Of a stretch of 64,000 nucleotides of DNA, positions 56,885 through 64,000 are shown piece by piece. The notes beneath the pieces were generated by a model. It saw only the letters and a program-made list of their open reading frames with translations. It was not told the origin of the DNA and ran no database searches. The position numbers and the translations under genes were made by a program. Source of the DNA: Candidatus Poribacteria bacterium. Lineage in GTDB: Bacteria; Poribacteria; WGA-4E; PCPOR2b. Each line of letters opens with the position of its first letter. The first letter of the stretch is position 1. The DNA lies in the NCBI GenBank assembly GCA_022822785.1, contig JAJEAL010000093.1:1-64000 (forward strand). Reading direction: 5' to 3'.

Positions 56885-56913
56885 TTGACACCTTTTTCAA
56901 AATGTGAAATAAT
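56885..56913 (+). promoter_or_regulatory. Sigma-70 promoter of the nuo operon
   Basis: TTGACA at 56885-56890 and AATAAT at 56908-56913 with the ideal 17-base spacer. It is 120 bases upstream of nuoA, which heads the operon. Confidence 0.65.
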
Positions 56914-56928
56914 ACTCCTTCGGAAATT

Positions 56929-56957
56929 ATGGGCTGAAAATGAGCCCATTCTTTTTT
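56929..56957 (+). terminator. Hairpin and T run in the nuo leader (possible attenuator)
   Basis: ATGGGCT and AGCCCAT pair around a 7-base loop and are followed by TCTTTTTT. It lies only about ten bases after the expected transcription start of the nuo promoter. It may instead end transcripts coming from the upstream gene. Confidence 0.5.
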
Positions 56958-57033: not shown

Positions 57034-57402
57034 ATGTTGACTGATTACTTACCCATACTGTTGTTACTAATTTTTGCTATCGGCTTTGCGGGAGTGAACC
57101 TTGCCCTGACTCACCTCGTCGGCCCAAAAAAATCAACGCAGGCCAAACTCTCCGTTTATGAATCTGGCGTTCAACCGGTCGGAGACACCCGGCAAAGGAT
57201 TTCCATCCGCTTTGGACTCATCGCAATGCTCTTTATCATTTTTGATATCGAGGTCGTTTTCCTATATCCATGGGCAATTGTCTTTAAGAAATTTACAGAG
57301 ACCAGCGGCTATTTTATCCTAATTGAGATGCTAGTCTTTATCGGCATCCTCTTTTTAGGTTATATCTACGCTTGGAAGAAAGGCGGTCTATCGTGGGATT
57401 AG
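57034..57402 (+). CDS. nuoA: NADH-quinone oxidoreductase subunit A
   Basis: A 122-residue membrane subunit of complex I with three hydrophobic segments. The conserved region [20 protein letters not shown] and the acidic [20 protein letters not shown] block are diagnostic. It helps form the junction between the hydrophilic arm and the membrane arm. It heads the nuo operon and its end overlaps nuoB by 10 bases. Confidence 0.95.
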
Positions 57403-57893
57403 AAAGTCAACTTGGAGATAACATATTCACCACCACTATTGATAAGTTTGTGAATTGGGGACGAAAAAACTCCCTCTGGCCAATGCCGTTCGGTACTGCC
57501 TGTTGCGCCATTGAAATGATGGCAACCTTGACGTCGAAGTTCGACCTTTCGCGCTTCGGTGCGGAAGCGATTCGATTTTCGCCGCGTCAATCGGATTTGC
57601 TAATTGTTTCGGGGCGTATCTCCATTAAAATGATGCCGGTCCTCAAGAAAATCTACGACCAGATGCCCGATCCGAAATGGGTCATCTCAATGGGGGCATG
57701 CGCCTCTACGGGCGGTGTTTTTGATACTTACACCCTAGTGCAGGGCGTGGACGGATTTATCCCCGTCGATATCTATATCCCCGGATGCCCACCACGTCCT
57801 GAAGATCTCATTGATGCTGTCATGCAGGTTCAACGCATCGTAGAACAAGAAAGTGTCTCCCCGAAAAAACGGAGTAGAGCAATCGCTAGCTAG
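57393..57893 (+). CDS. nuoB: NADH-quinone oxidoreductase subunit B
   Basis: A 166-residue subunit carrying the N2 4Fe-4S cluster, which donates electrons to quinone. The cluster cysteines are visible as the pair in [12 protein letters not shown], in [10 protein letters not shown] and in [11 protein letters not shown]. An upstream TTG at 57372 extends the frame, but GTG 57393, with AAAGGCGG upstream, fits the family start and gives a 10-base overlap with nuoA, implying coupled translation. Confidence 0.96.
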
Positions 57894-57935: not shown

Positions 57936-58466
57936 ATGAGTGAACAGCACCACCCCCTTGTCGTGCAAAAAATTCAGGAGAAATACCCCGATGCCGTTCT
58001 TGATGTTGCCGACGCACGAGGTGAACTGACGGTTACGGTCAATAAAGATGTCATCTACGACCTGATGGCATTCCTGAAAAACGATTCAGAACTCACATAC
58101 AACTTTCTCGCGGATGTCACAGCGGTCGATTATTCCTTAATGGAAGATACCCTGATGAAATACGACTACGCCCGGTTCATGCTCGTCTATCATCTACTCT
58201 CGACCGAAAAGAAACAACGTCTGCGCGTCAAAGTACCTGTGCATGAAAACGAACTGAGCATTCCATCAATGGCATCAATTTGGAAAGTGGCAAATTGGTT
58301 GGAGCGGGAAACATACGACATGTTTGGAATCATCTTTGAGAACCATCCAGATCTACGGCGGATTTTAATGCCCGATGATTACGAAGGGTACCCGCTTCGT
58401 AAGGATTACCCACTGCGCGGGCGTGGGGAACGCGAGACCTTCAACTTTGAACAGCAAAATCTGTAA
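57936..58466 (+). CDS. nuoC: NADH-quinone oxidoreductase subunit C
   Basis: A 176-residue soluble-arm subunit. The conserved pieces are LTYNFLADVTAVDY, SIWKVANWLERETYDMFGI and the C-terminal RRILMPDDYEGYPLRKDYPL. NuoC is separate from NuoD here, whereas they are fused in enterobacteria. ATG at 57936 after AGAGGA. Confidence 0.96.
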   Translation: MSEQHHPLVVQKIQEKYPDAVLDVADARGELTVTVNKDVIYDLMAFLKNDSELTYNFLADVTAVDYSLMEDTLMKYDYARFMLVYHLLSTEKKQRLRVKVPVHENELSIPSMASIWKVANWLERETYDMFGIIFENHPDLRRILMPDDYEGYPLRKDYPLRGRGERETFNFEQQNL

Positions 58467-58530: not shown

Positions 58531-59727
58531 ATGCACAAAGATCCAGATCGAGTTTCTGGCGAGCCAATGACGTTAAACTTTGGTCCCCAGCATCCGGCAA
58601 CCCACGGTACGCTTAGAATTGTCGTCGAACTTGACGGTGAAACTGTCCTAAAAGCAACACCGCATCTCGGTTACTTACATACCGGTTTCGAGAAGCTAGG
58701 AGAGCACCACGACTACAACCAGTATATCGTTGTAACCGACCGGATGAACTACCTCTCACCGTTGTCTAATAACTTCGGCTATGTGCTCGCTGTGGAAAAG
58801 CTGCTGGATATCCAAGTTCCAAAGCGTTGCGAATACATTCGCGTAATCCTTGCTGAGCTCTCCCGCATAGCAGATCACATGGTATGGCTCGGTATGGGGG
58901 CATTGGACCTCGGGGCATTTACCATCATGTTATACGGCTTTGCAGAACGGGAGAAATTGTACAGTATCTTTGAGAAAACTACCGGTGCCCGTTTGACCAC
59001 TAGCTATACCCGTGTCGGCGGGTTGATGAGAGATATCTACGACGGTTTTGAAGAAGATGTCCGCGCGTTTCTGAATAGCTTTCCAAAAACCCTAAAGGAG
59101 GTCCACACCCTCCTAACCCGAAACCGAATTTGGATGGATCGCACCAAAGAAGTTGGGGTAGTTTCAGCGGAAGATGCAATCGATTACGGCTTCACAGGAC
59201 CATGTCTTCGCGCCTCCGGTGTAGATTGGGACTTACGAAAAGCAGAACCTTACTCTTGCTATGAGGACTTCGAGTTTGATGTTCCTATCGGTGCCAACGG
59301 CGATGTTTATGACCGCTATCTCGTGCGCATGGAAGAGATGGTTCAGAGCGGTCGAATCATCCGCCAGGCATTGGATAACTTGCCAGATGGACCTGTCAAT
59401 GTAGAGGACTATAAAATAAGTCTACCAACGAAAGAAGATGCCTACGGGAATATCGAAGGACTAATCCACCACTTCAAGATTATTATGGATGGACATGGCG
59501 TCCAACCCCCTAAAGGGGAGGTTTACTGTGCTACCGAGTCCCCAAATGGTGAACTAGGATTTTACATTGTCAGTGACGGCAGCGGCAAGGCATATCGAAT
59601 CCGTATTCGTCCACCCAGCTTTATACACTTTCAAGCGTTACCTCACATGATTGAAGGCGGCATGGTATCAGATATCGTCGCCGTATTAGGCAGCCTAAAC
59701 ATTATTGCCGGGGAATTGGATCGATAA
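58531..59727 (+). CDS. nuoD: NADH-quinone oxidoreductase subunit D
   Basis: A 398-residue 49-kDa-type subunit that forms the quinone-binding cavity with NuoB. Motifs: NFGPQHPATHGTLRIVVELD at the start, PHLGYLHTGFEKLGEHHDYN, RADHM-type RIADHMVWLGMGALDLGA, and the C-terminal VLGSLNIIAGELDR. Length and ends are complete. GGAGAAAAAGAG precedes the ATG. After it, the operon is interrupted by a gene that is not part of complex I. Confidence 0.97.
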   Translation: MHKDPDRVSGEPMTLNFGPQHPATHGTLRIVVELDGETVLKATPHLGYLHTGFEKLGEHHDYNQYIVVTDRMNYLSPLSNNFGYVLAVEKLLDIQVPKRCEYIRVILAELSRIADHMVWLGMGALDLGAFTIMLYGFAEREKLYSIFEKTTGARLTTSYTRVGGLMRDIYDGFEEDVRAFLNSFPKTLKEVHTLLTRNRIWMDRTKEVGVVSAEDAIDYGFTGPCLRASGVDWDLRKAEPYSCYEDFEFDVPIGANGDVYDRYLVRMEEMVQSGRIIRQALDNLPDGPVNVEDYKISLPTKEDAYGNIEGLIHHFKIIMDGHGVQPPKGEVYCATESPNGELGFYIVSDGSGKAYRIRIRPPSFIHFQALPHMIEGGMVSDIVAVLGSLNIIAGELDR

Positions 59728-59836: not shown

Positions 59837-60541
59837 ATGAAGCGATTAGCTCTTCTTTTATTATTCGGTCTCTGGCTCATTTCCAGGCCAGTTTTTTCCC
59901 AAAATCTAATAACAGGATCAGTTCGCGGATACGTCTCTGATACTACAAGGGCGCAGCTCCCAATTGACGGAGTCAGAGTTGTTCTTACCGCTGCCGATGG
60001 ACTCGAAACTGTAGGTGAAACGGACAACAACGGTGAATTTGAAATAGCCGGTTTGGCGCCCGGTCGGTATCTGCTAAGTTGTTATAAAGACGCGTACTGG
60101 AACTGTGTCGGTAAATCGGTCACAGTCATCGCCGGCGGCAGCCACTACGTCCGGCTTAGAACAGCTGAACATGCAAAAACAGGGGCAGTTCGTGGTTATG
60201 TCTCTGATACTACAAGGGCGCAGCTCCCCGTCGAAAGGGTCAGAGTTGCTCTCGTCGCTGCTAGCGGACTCGAAACTGAAGGTGAAACAGCTAGTAATGG
60301 TGAATTTAGGGTAGTCGGGTTGGTGCCCGGTCGGTATCTGTTGAGTATTTACAAAGATGGTTATCTTGAGCGTACTGGCAAACCGGTTACAGTTGTTGCT
60401 GGTGGGGAGCATTACGTACCTCTAAAAATAATCAAACAAGAACCGCCGTGGCTGCTACTTATCTGTTTAGGAACCGCTGCAGTCTTGATTGTTGGCATAG
60501 CCATTGTTGCAGGTTTGCGAACCGATCAACCCCCAGACTAA
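59837..60541 (+). CDS. Secreted two-repeat carboxypeptidase-regulatory-like protein inside the nuo operon
   Basis: A 234-residue protein with a signal peptide (KRLALLLLFGLWLISRPVFS), two tandem domains of about 89 residues each of carboxypeptidase-regulatory-like (beta-sandwich) type, and a C-terminal hydrophobic helix (LLICLGTAAVLIVGIAIVAG) that would anchor it. Both repeats share RGYVSDTTRAQLP, NGEF and PGRYLLS. A 28-base identical run at 59934 and 60201 shows recent duplication. The ATG lacks a ribosome site; a longer frame from 59705 overlaps nuoD but would hide the signal. It is not a known complex I subunit, yet lies between nuoD and nuoE on the same strand. Confidence 0.75.
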   Translation: MKRLALLLLFGLWLISRPVFSQNLITGSVRGYVSDTTRAQLPIDGVRVVLTAADGLETVGETDNNGEFEIAGLAPGRYLLSCYKDAYWNCVGKSVTVIAGGSHYVRLRTAEHAKTGAVRGYVSDTTRAQLPVERVRVALVAASGLETEGETASNGEFRVVGLVPGRYLLSIYKDGYLERTGKPVTVVAGGEHYVPLKIIKQEPPWLLLICLGTAAVLIVGIAIVAGLRTDQPPD

Positions 60542-60641: not shown

Positions 60642-61163
60642 ATGTCCAATGAACTAATTCAAATAGAAACGCCATTCCAGTTTTCAGACGAAAATCAGCA
60701 AGAGTTTGATCGGCTGATTCAGTGGTATCCGGTGAAGGAAGCCGCAATGCTTCCTACACTGCACCTAGCACAGAAACAGGTAGGCTATATCAGCCCTGCT
60801 GTGATGGAACATGTCGCTGCACTCCTAGAAGTGTCGGTGATGAAGGTTAAAGATGTGGTGACATTCTATCCGATGTTTTTCGAAGAACCTGTAGGCAAAT
60901 ATGTCATCCGCGTTTGCTACACGCTTCCCTGTGCGTTGAGAGATTGTAAATTGGTACTGGAGCATATCAAACAAAAATTTGAGATAGATGTTGCCTCTGA
61001 AACAGATTTGGCAAAAGGCACCACCTCGGACGGGAAATTTACCTTGCTGAAATCAGAGTGTCTAGCATCTTGTGATGTGGCACCCGTCGTGATGATCAAC
61101 GATGATTTGTATAAGAACCTCACTCCGCAAAAGATGGATGAGATTTTGGATAGCTTAGAGTAG
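60642..61163 (+). CDS. nuoE: NADH-quinone oxidoreductase subunit E
   Basis: A 173-residue 24-kDa-type subunit with a 2Fe-2S cluster. The four ligands are in RVCYTLPCALRDC (C-x4-C) and LKSECLASCDVAPV (C-x3-C). It partners NuoF in NADH oxidation; nuoF begins 24 bases later. AAAGGA precedes the ATG. Confidence 0.96.
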   Translation: MSNELIQIETPFQFSDENQQEFDRLIQWYPVKEAAMLPTLHLAQKQVGYISPAVMEHVAALLEVSVMKVKDVVTFYPMFFEEPVGKYVIRVCYTLPCALRDCKLVLEHIKQKFEIDVASETDLAKGTTSDGKFTLLKSECLASCDVAPVVMINDDLYKNLTPQKMDEILDSLE

Positions 61164-61186: not shown

Positions 61187-62659
61187 ATGGTTCAAGAAAG
61201 ACGCATTCTCTACGAACATCTGGATGTACCTGACATCAATACCTTTGATGTATTCCGTCAGTATGATGGGTATAAACACTTCGAGAAGACAATTCAGGAG
61301 TATCAGCCGGAAGAAATTTGCGATATGGTGATGAAATCCGGGCTGAAAGGGCGCGGCGGCGCAGGTTTTTCAACCGGGCTAAAGTGGAGTTTCGTACCCA
61401 GAGACATTGAACCGCGCTACCTGTGTTGTAACGCCGATGAGAGCGAGCCGGGCACCTTTAGCAATCGCTACGTACTTGAGAGAAATCCGCACCTGCTTAT
61501 TGAAGGTATCCTGATCTGCTGCTATGCAATGGGAATTAGCACGGCGTACGTTTACATCCGTGGCGAATTCACACTTGGCAAGCGTATGTTGGATGCCGCT
61601 ATCGAAGAAGCATATCAGCACGGTTATCTGGGAAAAAATATTCTAGGCAGTGGTTTTGATTTGGATATTTACACCCATCCAGGCGCCGGCGCGTACATCT
61701 GCGGAGAAGAGACCGGACTCATTGAATCCCTTGAAGGGAAACGCGGGCAACCGCGTGTTAAACCACCATTTCCGGCAGTCGAAGGATTGTTCCATAAACC
61801 AACAGTTGTCCAGAATGTAGAGACCCTTTGTAATCTACCTTTCCTCATGGGAAACGGTGTTGAATGGTATACGGATATTGGGCGTACTTATGCAGATACG
61901 CGAGCTAATCCGCCAACGCCAGACCCAAACACCGGGACAAAATTGTACTGTATCAGCGGAGACGTGAACAAGCCAGGCGTCTATGAACTCGATCTTGGTT
62001 TGTCCGCAGAGGAGCTAATCGAAGTTGCAGGCGGGGTCAAGGGTGAGCGCGTAAAAGCCGTTATCCCCGGCGGCAGCTCCGCACCGATTTTAACGCATTA
62101 TGAGTTGGAATGTCGTCTCGACTTCACCTCCTTAACACTCTGGAAATCAATGCTTGGTTCTGGTGGCATCATTGTCATGAACGAAACACGGAACATCGTC
62201 GATTGTCTCCTCAACATCATGAAGTTCTACGCACATGAGTCGTGCGGTCAGTGCACACCGTGCCGTTGGGGAACACCTTGGGTGAGAGATATCGTCCAAC
62301 GAATCGCCGATGGCGAGGGGCGACAAACGACGATTCAGCGCCCTAAGTTTGGCGTTGCGGAGGGTGGTAGATGGGGTGACACCGGTGAGATGGAAGAGGT
62401 TTACGAAGATCTTGATTTACTCGAAAGCGTCGCAAACAATATCGCAAATGTGGATACCATGACATGGAACACCATCTGCGTCTTTGGTATCGCTGTCTCT
62501 TGGCCCGCAGTGAGCTATCTGCGGAAATTCCGTCCCGAGTTTGAGGCTGCAATCCGTGAAGGGAAACTGGTAACATTGTCGGTAGAGGAAGCGACCGTGC
62601 CGCCGGAAGAGAATTACGCCTATCAGCAGCGGATAGTTCCGCAACTATTTGAAGCCTAA
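61187..62659 (+). CDS. nuoF: NADH-quinone oxidoreductase subunit F
   Basis: A 490-residue 51-kDa-type subunit that binds NADH and FMN and a 4Fe-4S cluster. SGLKGRGGAGFSTGLKWSF is the NADH site, YLCCNADESEPGTF the FMN site, and HESCGQCTPCRWGT the cluster motif (C-x2-C-x2-C, with a fourth Cys further on in MTWNTICVFG). It is somewhat longer than the usual 430 residues, with a C-terminal extension. AAGG precedes the ATG. Confidence 0.96.
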   Translation: MVQERRILYEHLDVPDINTFDVFRQYDGYKHFEKTIQEYQPEEICDMVMKSGLKGRGGAGFSTGLKWSFVPRDIEPRYLCCNADESEPGTFSNRYVLERNPHLLIEGILICCYAMGISTAYVYIRGEFTLGKRMLDAAIEEAYQHGYLGKNILGSGFDLDIYTHPGAGAYICGEETGLIESLEGKRGQPRVKPPFPAVEGLFHKPTVVQNVETLCNLPFLMGNGVEWYTDIGRTYADTRANPPTPDPNTGTKLYCISGDVNKPGVYELDLGLSAEELIEVAGGVKGERVKAVIPGGSSAPILTHYELECRLDFTSLTLWKSMLGSGGIIVMNETRNIVDCLLNIMKFYAHESCGQCTPCRWGTPWVRDIVQRIADGEGRQTTIQRPKFGVAEGGRWGDTGEMEEVYEDLDLLESVANNIANVDTMTWNTICVFGIAVSWPAVSYLRKFRPEFEAAIREGKLVTLSVEEATVPPEENYAYQQRIVPQLFEA

Positions 62660-62732: not shown

Positions 62733-64000
62733 ATGGCATTCATTAAACTGAACGACCTCGAAGTTGAAGTTGAAGACGGGACCAATATCATTGAAGCTGC
62801 AAGGCAAAATGGCATTGAAGTACCACACTACTGTTACCACCCAGGGTTAACCCGCCCGGCAAACTGTCGCATGTGCCTTGTGGAGCCCCACGTCTTCTTT
62901 CCGCCTGCGGGCCAGGTTGTTCCAGACCGTCAACTCGCAACCGGGTGCACAACTACAGTGCGGACTGCACCGCCGGATCGGAAGCTGGATGGAAAGTATG
63001 ATTTTATTGTCCGCACCGATTCGCCGCGTGTGAAGCAGGCACGCGAGGACATCCTTGAGTTTCTACTCGTCCATCACCCGCTCGATTGCCCCGTCTGTGA
63101 CCAAGCAGGGGAGTGCGATCTACAGGATTTCAGTTTTAATCACGGCAGCGGCAAGAGCCGATATATCGAGGTAAAGAACGTTCCACCGAAAAAAGACCTC
63201 GGTCCCGATGTACTCCTCTATTCGACCCGATGTATTGTTTGTACCCGATGTATCCGCTTCTGCGATGAAGTTTCAGGCACTGGAGAACTTGGATTAATCC
63301 ATCGAGGTTCACACGACGAGATTGATATTCCACGCGACCATAACGGTAGCCCACTCCGGTTGCTCGATAATAAACTCGCTGGCAATGTCGTCGATATCTG
63401 TCCTGTTGGTGCCCTAACCAGCAAGGATTTTCTCTTTAAATCCCGCCCTTGGTTCATGAAGCAGGTCAATAGCGTCTGCCCGGGGTGTAGTGTCGGCTGC
63501 AATATCACCGTTGATTATAAGGAGGATGGCCTCTATCGAATTCAACCCCGCTTCCACGAGGACATTAATCAACACTGGATGTGCGATGACGGCCGGCTCG
63601 GCTATCACTACGTCAACAGCGAAGATCGACTCAAAATTCCGATGAAACAGGTAGATGGGGAACTCGTCCCAACCTCGTGGGCGGATGCATTGAATATCAT
63701 CACCGAGAAATTTTCTGAGGCCGACCCGGGCTCCATCGCGGTCATCGGTTCTGCCCAAGGCACCAATGAGGAGAATTACCTGCTGGGTAAACTAGCGCGT
63801 GAAGTCCTAAAAACGGAGTCGATCGGTCTATTTGGACGTGAACCGGGTGAGGAACACAAATTCCCGCAATTCACCATTGACGCTGACAAAAATCCGAATA
63901 CTCGTGGCGCACGGGATATGCTCAGACTAGATGACGAAACCGCTTTAGCCGGGGACGCACTTTGGGGTGGAATAGCAAATGCAAAGGTCGTTTACCTCGT
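62733..64000 (+). CDS. nuoG: NADH-quinone oxidoreductase subunit G (3' end outside window)
   Basis: The window's last gene, at least 422 residues, is the iron-sulfur-rich 75-kDa-type subunit. The start MAFIKLNDLEVEVEDG begins a 2Fe-2S domain (ligands in HYCYHPG, ANCRMCLV), followed by the His-Cys motif HHPLDCPVCDQAGECDLQ, two further Cys clusters (TRCIVCTRCIRFC and CPVGAL) and, near residue 250, VNSVCPGCSVGCNI, which opens the molybdopterin-like domain. The open frame continues unbroken to position 64000. The ATG at 62733 lacks a strong ribosome site (GAGG is close). Confidence 0.95.
   Translation, partial: MAFIKLNDLEVEVEDGTNIIEAARQNGIEVPHYCYHPGLTRPANCRMCLVEPHVFFPPAGQVVPDRQLATGCTTTVRTAPPDRKLDGKYDFIVRTDSPRVKQAREDILEFLLVHHPLDCPVCDQAGECDLQDFSFNHGSGKSRYIEVKNVPPKKDLGPDVLLYSTRCIVCTRCIRFCDEVSGTGELGLIHRGSHDEIDIPRDHNGSPLRLLDNKLAGNVVDICPVGALTSKDFLFKSRPWFMKQVNSVCPGCSVGCNITVDYKEDGLYRIQPRFHEDINQHWMCDDGRLGYHYVNSEDRLKIPMKQVDGELVPTSWADALNIITEKFSEADPGSIAVIGSAQGTNEENYLLGKLAREVLKTESIGLFGREPGEEHKFPQFTIDADKNPNTRGARDMLRLDDETALAGDALWGGIANAKVVYL

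Follow-up and report, generated by a model that had tools for sequence, protein, structure and literature searches.

The gene lying between nuoD and nuoE in the poribacterial window studied here (the whole 64,000-nt stretch of DNA that was analysed) is fixed in one genus and probably encodes an accessory envelope protein, of an already known domain kind, at a site where much of the phylum carries extra genes. Poribacteria are bacteria often found in sponges, and nuoA-D and nuoE-G correspond to the quinone and NADH modules of complex I. We directly observed the architecture of the product, the fixed position of the gene, purifying selection on it, paralogues elsewhere and different genes in the same slot. 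On balance we lean towards an accessory envelope protein peculiar to the genus, whose gene entered the nuo operon a single time, in the ancestor of the genus, at a place that tolerates insertion; on this view the protein is not a complex I subunit. Two other readings were weighed against the same evidence. By analogy with NOMO and EMC7, the protein could be an additional complex I subunit, or a factor in complex I assembly, that is peculiar to the genus; its helix would dock on the membrane arm and its sandwiches would cover the periplasmic side, which we consider rather unlikely. Or the gene could be a passenger without present importance that landed at a permissive operon junction, which strikes us as distinctly improbable.

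The open reading frame runs on the + strand from an ATG at 59837 to a TAA at 60541 and encodes 234 aa. The first-pass annotation had described an exported, C-terminally anchored protein with two tandem beta-sandwich repeats, encoded between nuoD and nuoE, and this description was borne out by the coordinates and by the analysis of the product. The codons of a signal peptide, read by eye from the sequence, occupy 59837..59899 (residues 1-21). Pfam, the DNA repeat and an AlphaFold2 model all indicated two beta-sandwich repeats, at 59915..60163 (residues 27-109) and 60182..60430 (residues 116-198). Pfam assigned two stretches of the protein to PF13620 (CarboxypepD_reg) with 87 bits against a cut-off of 32.3 (E 1.1e-24). 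The model, built from five sequences, had a mean pLDDT of 78 and a pTM of 0.48; its seven strands per repeat and CnaB-type matches indicated a prealbumin-like fold, with low whole-chain TM-scores (0.35). A C-terminal transmembrane helix was modelled at residues 204-229 (60446..60523), and the hydropathy maximum of the protein, 2.95, fell at residues 206-224. No NCBIfam family matched the protein, nor did any Nuo family in Pfam or NCBIfam, nor PF01618 (the MotA/TolQ/ExbB channel domain) in Pfam.

On the + strand, the gene is preceded by nuoA (57034..57402), nuoB (57372..57893) and nuoC (57936..58466), all named by Pfam, and by nuoD (58531..59727; PF00346, E 1e-120). It is followed by nuoE (60642..61163; PF01257, E 1.3e-48), nuoF (61187..62659; Pfam) and the start of nuoG (62733..63998), an ORF that leaves the window and was named by sequence and position, with tblastn matches at the corresponding site in relatives. 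The spacers measure 109 nt from the nuoD stop to the gene and 100 nt from the gene to the nuoE ATG, all on the same strand. The window lies within contig C88 of genome G000, and nuoH, J, K, L, M and N and then an ATP synthase cluster follow past its end; its NuoD is 93-95% identical to the best four Candidatus Poribacteria records fetched. Several features of the operon were observed alongside. nuoA and nuoB overlap by 31 nt (57372-57402), and the same overlap (-28 by match ends) was found in nearly all measurable Poribacteria. Past the window on C88, a CitMHS_2-type transporter gene (PF16980, 598 bits; L259:6922-8727) lies between nuoM and nuoN and overlaps nuoM by 11 nt, with the same order in G001. 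No nuoI-sized ORF was found in the nuoG-nuoH interval just past the window (L259:391-659); the best NuoI matches of the genome lie elsewhere, on C114 (92 bits, below the cut-off) and C53. In G006, a member of the same family, the nuo cluster at G006:C13 (L189) is far more distant (NuoD 44% and NuoE 33% identical) and may be a replacement by transfer.

A promoter-like site precedes nuoA on the + strand (56885..56913) with 11 of 12 matches, a consensus match only, in a region where the count of such matches equals chance. Between this site and nuoA, a terminator-like stem at 56929-56949 may mark where the gene upstream ends, or may act as an attenuator. No + strand promoter-like site was found in the 109-nt spacer between nuoD and the gene. 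In G005 only 11 nt separate the nuoD stop from the first in-frame start codon, which argues for a single transcript and also favours a subunit or assembly factor. Same-strand placement without an obvious internal promoter suits a complex I accessory equally well. RNA structure around the gene was considered and set aside, the spacers folding no better than shuffles (z from -1.02 to +1.78 over six stretches). Terminator-like sites overall numbered 13, against 4.2 +/- 2.3 in shuffles; one such stem, at 59872-59891 within the signal-peptide codons, was taken as chance because it is not kept in the alignment of relatives.

We then consider how the gene is distributed. The protein was searched against 58 genomes, which include metagenome-assembled ones and, for the genus of the gene, G000, G001, G002, G003, G004 and G005. 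All six gave matches, over most of the length in G000, G002, G003, G004 and G005 and as a one-repeat form in G001. According to tblastn of the nuo proteins against these loci, the gene directly follows nuoD in 6/6 genomes and directly precedes nuoE in 5/6, a constancy that favours both a genus-specific accessory envelope protein and a role in complex I. The variation in repeat number, down to one in G001, speaks against a role in complex I and in favour of a passenger, as does the state of the gene in G004. There, an element with an IS4/5-type transposase (PF13340, PF01609) interrupts the membrane-helix codons; nuoD and nuoE remain, and the nuoE contig starts inside a copy of the same IS element, after which comes what is left of the gene's 3' end. 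The reading frame is uninterrupted in five of the six genomes, contrary to what a passenger would suggest.

The gene is under purifying selection in the genus. Its NG86 dN/dS was 0.16-0.43 over 15 pairs and 0.16-0.32 over the 10 pairs without G001, where the G004 sequence includes the last codons running into the IS and that of G005 two codons before the first start codon. That every one of the 15 pairs stays well under 1, at dS 0.44-0.99, argues against a passenger; such selection counts for the accessory envelope protein and equally for a subunit or assembly factor. For nuoD, by comparison, dN/dS was 0.025-0.053; compared pair by pair, the ratio of the gene exceeds that of nuoD by a factor of about 4-12, which counts against a subunit. 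The dS of the gene copies (0.44-0.99) resembles that of nuoD (0.22-1.01), and the earlier suggestion of a recent insertion does not fit these values. Taken together, the position in all six genomes, the dN/dS and the nuoD-like dS show a gene whose age is about that of the genus, which is maintained by selection and evolves faster than nuoD.

Outside the genus the picture changes. In the sister genera represented by G007 and G008 the gene is absent from the site, with nuoD and nuoE close together, and no match was found in the nuo regions of any of the 42 genomes examined outside the genus, a point against a subunit or assembly factor. The other proposal of the first-pass annotation, a lineage-specific envelope factor, agrees with this distribution. 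That annotation had also held that an uninterrupted nuoD-nuoE in close relatives would reveal a chance insertion; relatives within the genus carry a similar gene in 6/6 genomes, and the uninterrupted arrangement occurs only outside it. A viral origin was tried and rejected, no relative being present in viral_contigs. An empty-site boundary was likewise sought from G007, whose spacer is too unlike those of the window to show the entry point.

The nuoD-nuoE gap was measured in 46 of the 58 genomes. Left out were G004, which the IS divides, G021, whose nuoD is on a different contig, the pair G016 and G050 (without a close nuoD or nuoE match), and also G025, G028, G029, G033, G041, G044, G052 and G055. 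For comparison we used 68 loci outside named Poribacteria, mostly Planctomycetota, 66 of which have both nuoD and nuoE. The gap exceeded 200 nt in 41 of the 46 Poribacteria versus 4 of the 66 outside loci. It contained the gene of interest in 5 Poribacteria, a glyoxalase-like gene (PF00903 in one representative, L043:7258-7599) in 36, and neither in 5 (G006, G007, G008, G011 and G014, with gaps of at most 108 nt); among the other ORFs found there are HicB-like and Uma2-like ones (Pfam, one representative each). Near nuoD-nuoE in the 66 comparison loci, neither the glyoxalase-like gene nor the gene of interest was found. The nuoD-nuoE junction is an accessory insertion slot in Poribacteria, filled differently by family, and the many unrelated genes at this junction across the phylum would suit a passenger. 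Counting against a special status of the junction, 57 of the 66 comparison loci showed, when estimated in the same way, more than 200 nt between nuoE and nuoF; which junction is roomy therefore varies between phyla.

The repeats have a longer history than the recent duplication first proposed. In the G000 gene, a DNA repeat of 190 nt with a spacing of 267 is 78% identical, far above chance. Measured over one fixed 190-nt stretch, the identity of the repeats is 76% in G000 and 75%, 70%, 68% and 64% in the other four two-repeat genomes. A tree built from 31 domains unites repeat 1 of these five genomes with support of 100/99, whereas their repeat-2 sequences fall outside that group and hold together only weakly (62/8). 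The single G001 domain is placed outside the other ten repeats (98/96) and next to them (84/85). Because the repeat-1 sequences form a group that excludes the repeat-2 sequences, the duplication predates the split of G000, G002, G003, G004 and G005, five of the six genus genomes, and the claim of recency is not upheld. The G000 repeats also have in common an exact tract of 29 nt (59933..59961 on the + strand, with the other copy at 60200-60228); in the other genomes the longest such tracts, of 28, 20, 15 and 14 nt, lie at different places. In the alignment, this tract bears letters absent from either repeat of the other genomes. Its chance probability is about 0.025, assuming independent sites at 78% identity and ignoring codon structure, which is weak evidence alone. 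The near-identity of the G000 repeats fits a later local homogenisation or conversion between them. As for G001, the nuoA-F tree gives no clear support to its place as first branch (52/41), and a grouping of the other five is not rejected (p-AU 0.39); the tree is compatible with a single repeat that is ancestral and with one that arose by loss.

The gene is not alone of its kind. The G000 genome has 36 PF13620 matches, 21 of them over the cut-off, including two in the gene of interest, and the nearest to it are copies on C21 (53%) and C89 (59%). On C21 the copy is flanked by a MoxR-type ATPase gene (PF07726) and a DUF58 gene. These two genes also flank copies in G004 and G005, with small ORFs between, and in G006, where the copy has three PF13620 domains and the ORF between is larger. 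In the C89 copy, the PF13620 domain is at the N terminus of ExbB (PF01618), followed by two ExbD-type genes. G007 and G008 carry a one-domain copy between MaoC and HpcH/HpaI-type genes (Pfam for G008 only), and in genomes of another family copies either neighbour an amidohydrolase gene (PF04909) or precede a gene that was named ABC ATPase-like by eye. Most copies are on the same strand as both neighbours, with at least three that differ (L235, L241, L247). Judged by the shared domain sequence and the helix after the domain, the gene is a member of a poribacterial family with signal peptide, PF13620 and membrane helix; we know of no function for its stand-alone members. Behind the last domain, the helix can be loosely aligned to helix 1 of the ExbB form, so that the stand-alone genes may have come from ExbB-type genes by truncation, or ExbB-type genes from stand-alone ones.

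These paralogues in unrelated gene clusters, together with the IS-interrupted G004 copy, speak against a dedicated role in complex I. On the other hand, within the genus the nuo copy is kept in 6/6 genomes versus 3/6 for the MoxR copy, and in G005 the ExbB copy is split in two. The better retention of the nuo copy suggests that the nuo site may matter, which counts against an accessory envelope protein and for a subunit or assembly factor. That alternative also draws on Pfam, where the protein weakly resembles EMC7_beta-sandw (E 0.0069, under the cut-off), and on the presence of 9c7u_B, from the human BOS complex, among the fold matches (TM-score 0.33). NOMO and EMC7 have a comparable arrangement on ER membrane complexes. 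Overall, a role in complex I is possible and not favoured. In its specific form, such a role would mean that the genus took on a periplasmic beta-sandwich protein with a membrane anchor as an additional subunit of complex I, drawn from a family that is specific to the phylum and occurs elsewhere as a fusion to ExbB. We regard this as very doubtful; if true, one extracytoplasmic module would be attached to two different proton-conducting machines.

For the accessory envelope protein that we favour, the following course can be proposed. A copy of a poribacterial family gene would have entered the tolerant nuoD-nuoE spot once, in the ancestor of the genus. The protein would be made from the nuo transcript and exported by Sec, and its last helix would hold it in the inner membrane, with the two sandwiches acting in the periplasm as an envelope spacer or binding module. 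The operon would supply co-expression with respiration, not a binding partner. The protein is probably co-expressed with complex I and not a core subunit.

Our literature search found no report of such a gene between nuoD and nuoE. The protein itself combines an ordinary domain with an odd place, and the standing nuoD-nuoE slot may be the more useful point. If complex I and the slot genes are linked, the latter are pointers to unknown respiratory accessory factors in an uncultured phylum; if they are not, a core operon can host unrelated genes over the long term.

Compared with the known subunits of complex I, the protein is alike in operon position and matches no Nuo family; it is encoded with complex I in related bacteria within the genus (6/6) and in none of the 42 genomes outside. 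EMC7 consists of an exported beta-sandwich domain with a C-terminal membrane helix, and the protein resembles the EMC7 and NOMO proteins of ER membrane complexes in this layout. It differs in sequence, reaching 17.0 bits with PF09430 (EMC7_beta-sandw) against a cut-off of 26.6 at the E-value given above. CnaB-like surface proteins and pilins (SdrD B, SpaA, GBS52) are similar in fold, the best model matches being 6fwv_A and 3phs (E 1.5e-10 and 1.6e-10). By contrast, identity to them is 15-17% with whole-chain TM-scores of only 0.35, and the nuo copy is anchored by a membrane helix, with no sortase motif seen by eye. The closest parallel comes from Poribacteria themselves. In the passages of PMC5087111 concerned with it, BTP, a poribacterial ExbB-type protein with a carboxypeptidase regulatory-like domain, is highly transcribed in a polycistron with ExbD genes, antibody signals of one ExbD are located at cell membranes, and several NADH-quinone oxidoreductase subunits are strongly transcribed; the nuoD-nuoE gene is not mentioned in these passages. 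BTP shares with the nuo-encoded protein a signal peptide, one closely similar PF13620 domain and a membrane helix behind it. The BTP-type protein of the genome that holds the window, on C89 (L179:6111-7106), which is equated with the published BTP by description only and without sequence comparison, is 51% identical to the second repeat and helix of the gene. The BTP-type protein continues into an ExbB proton channel and is accompanied by two ExbD genes, whereas the nuo copy has two repeats and ends after one helix.
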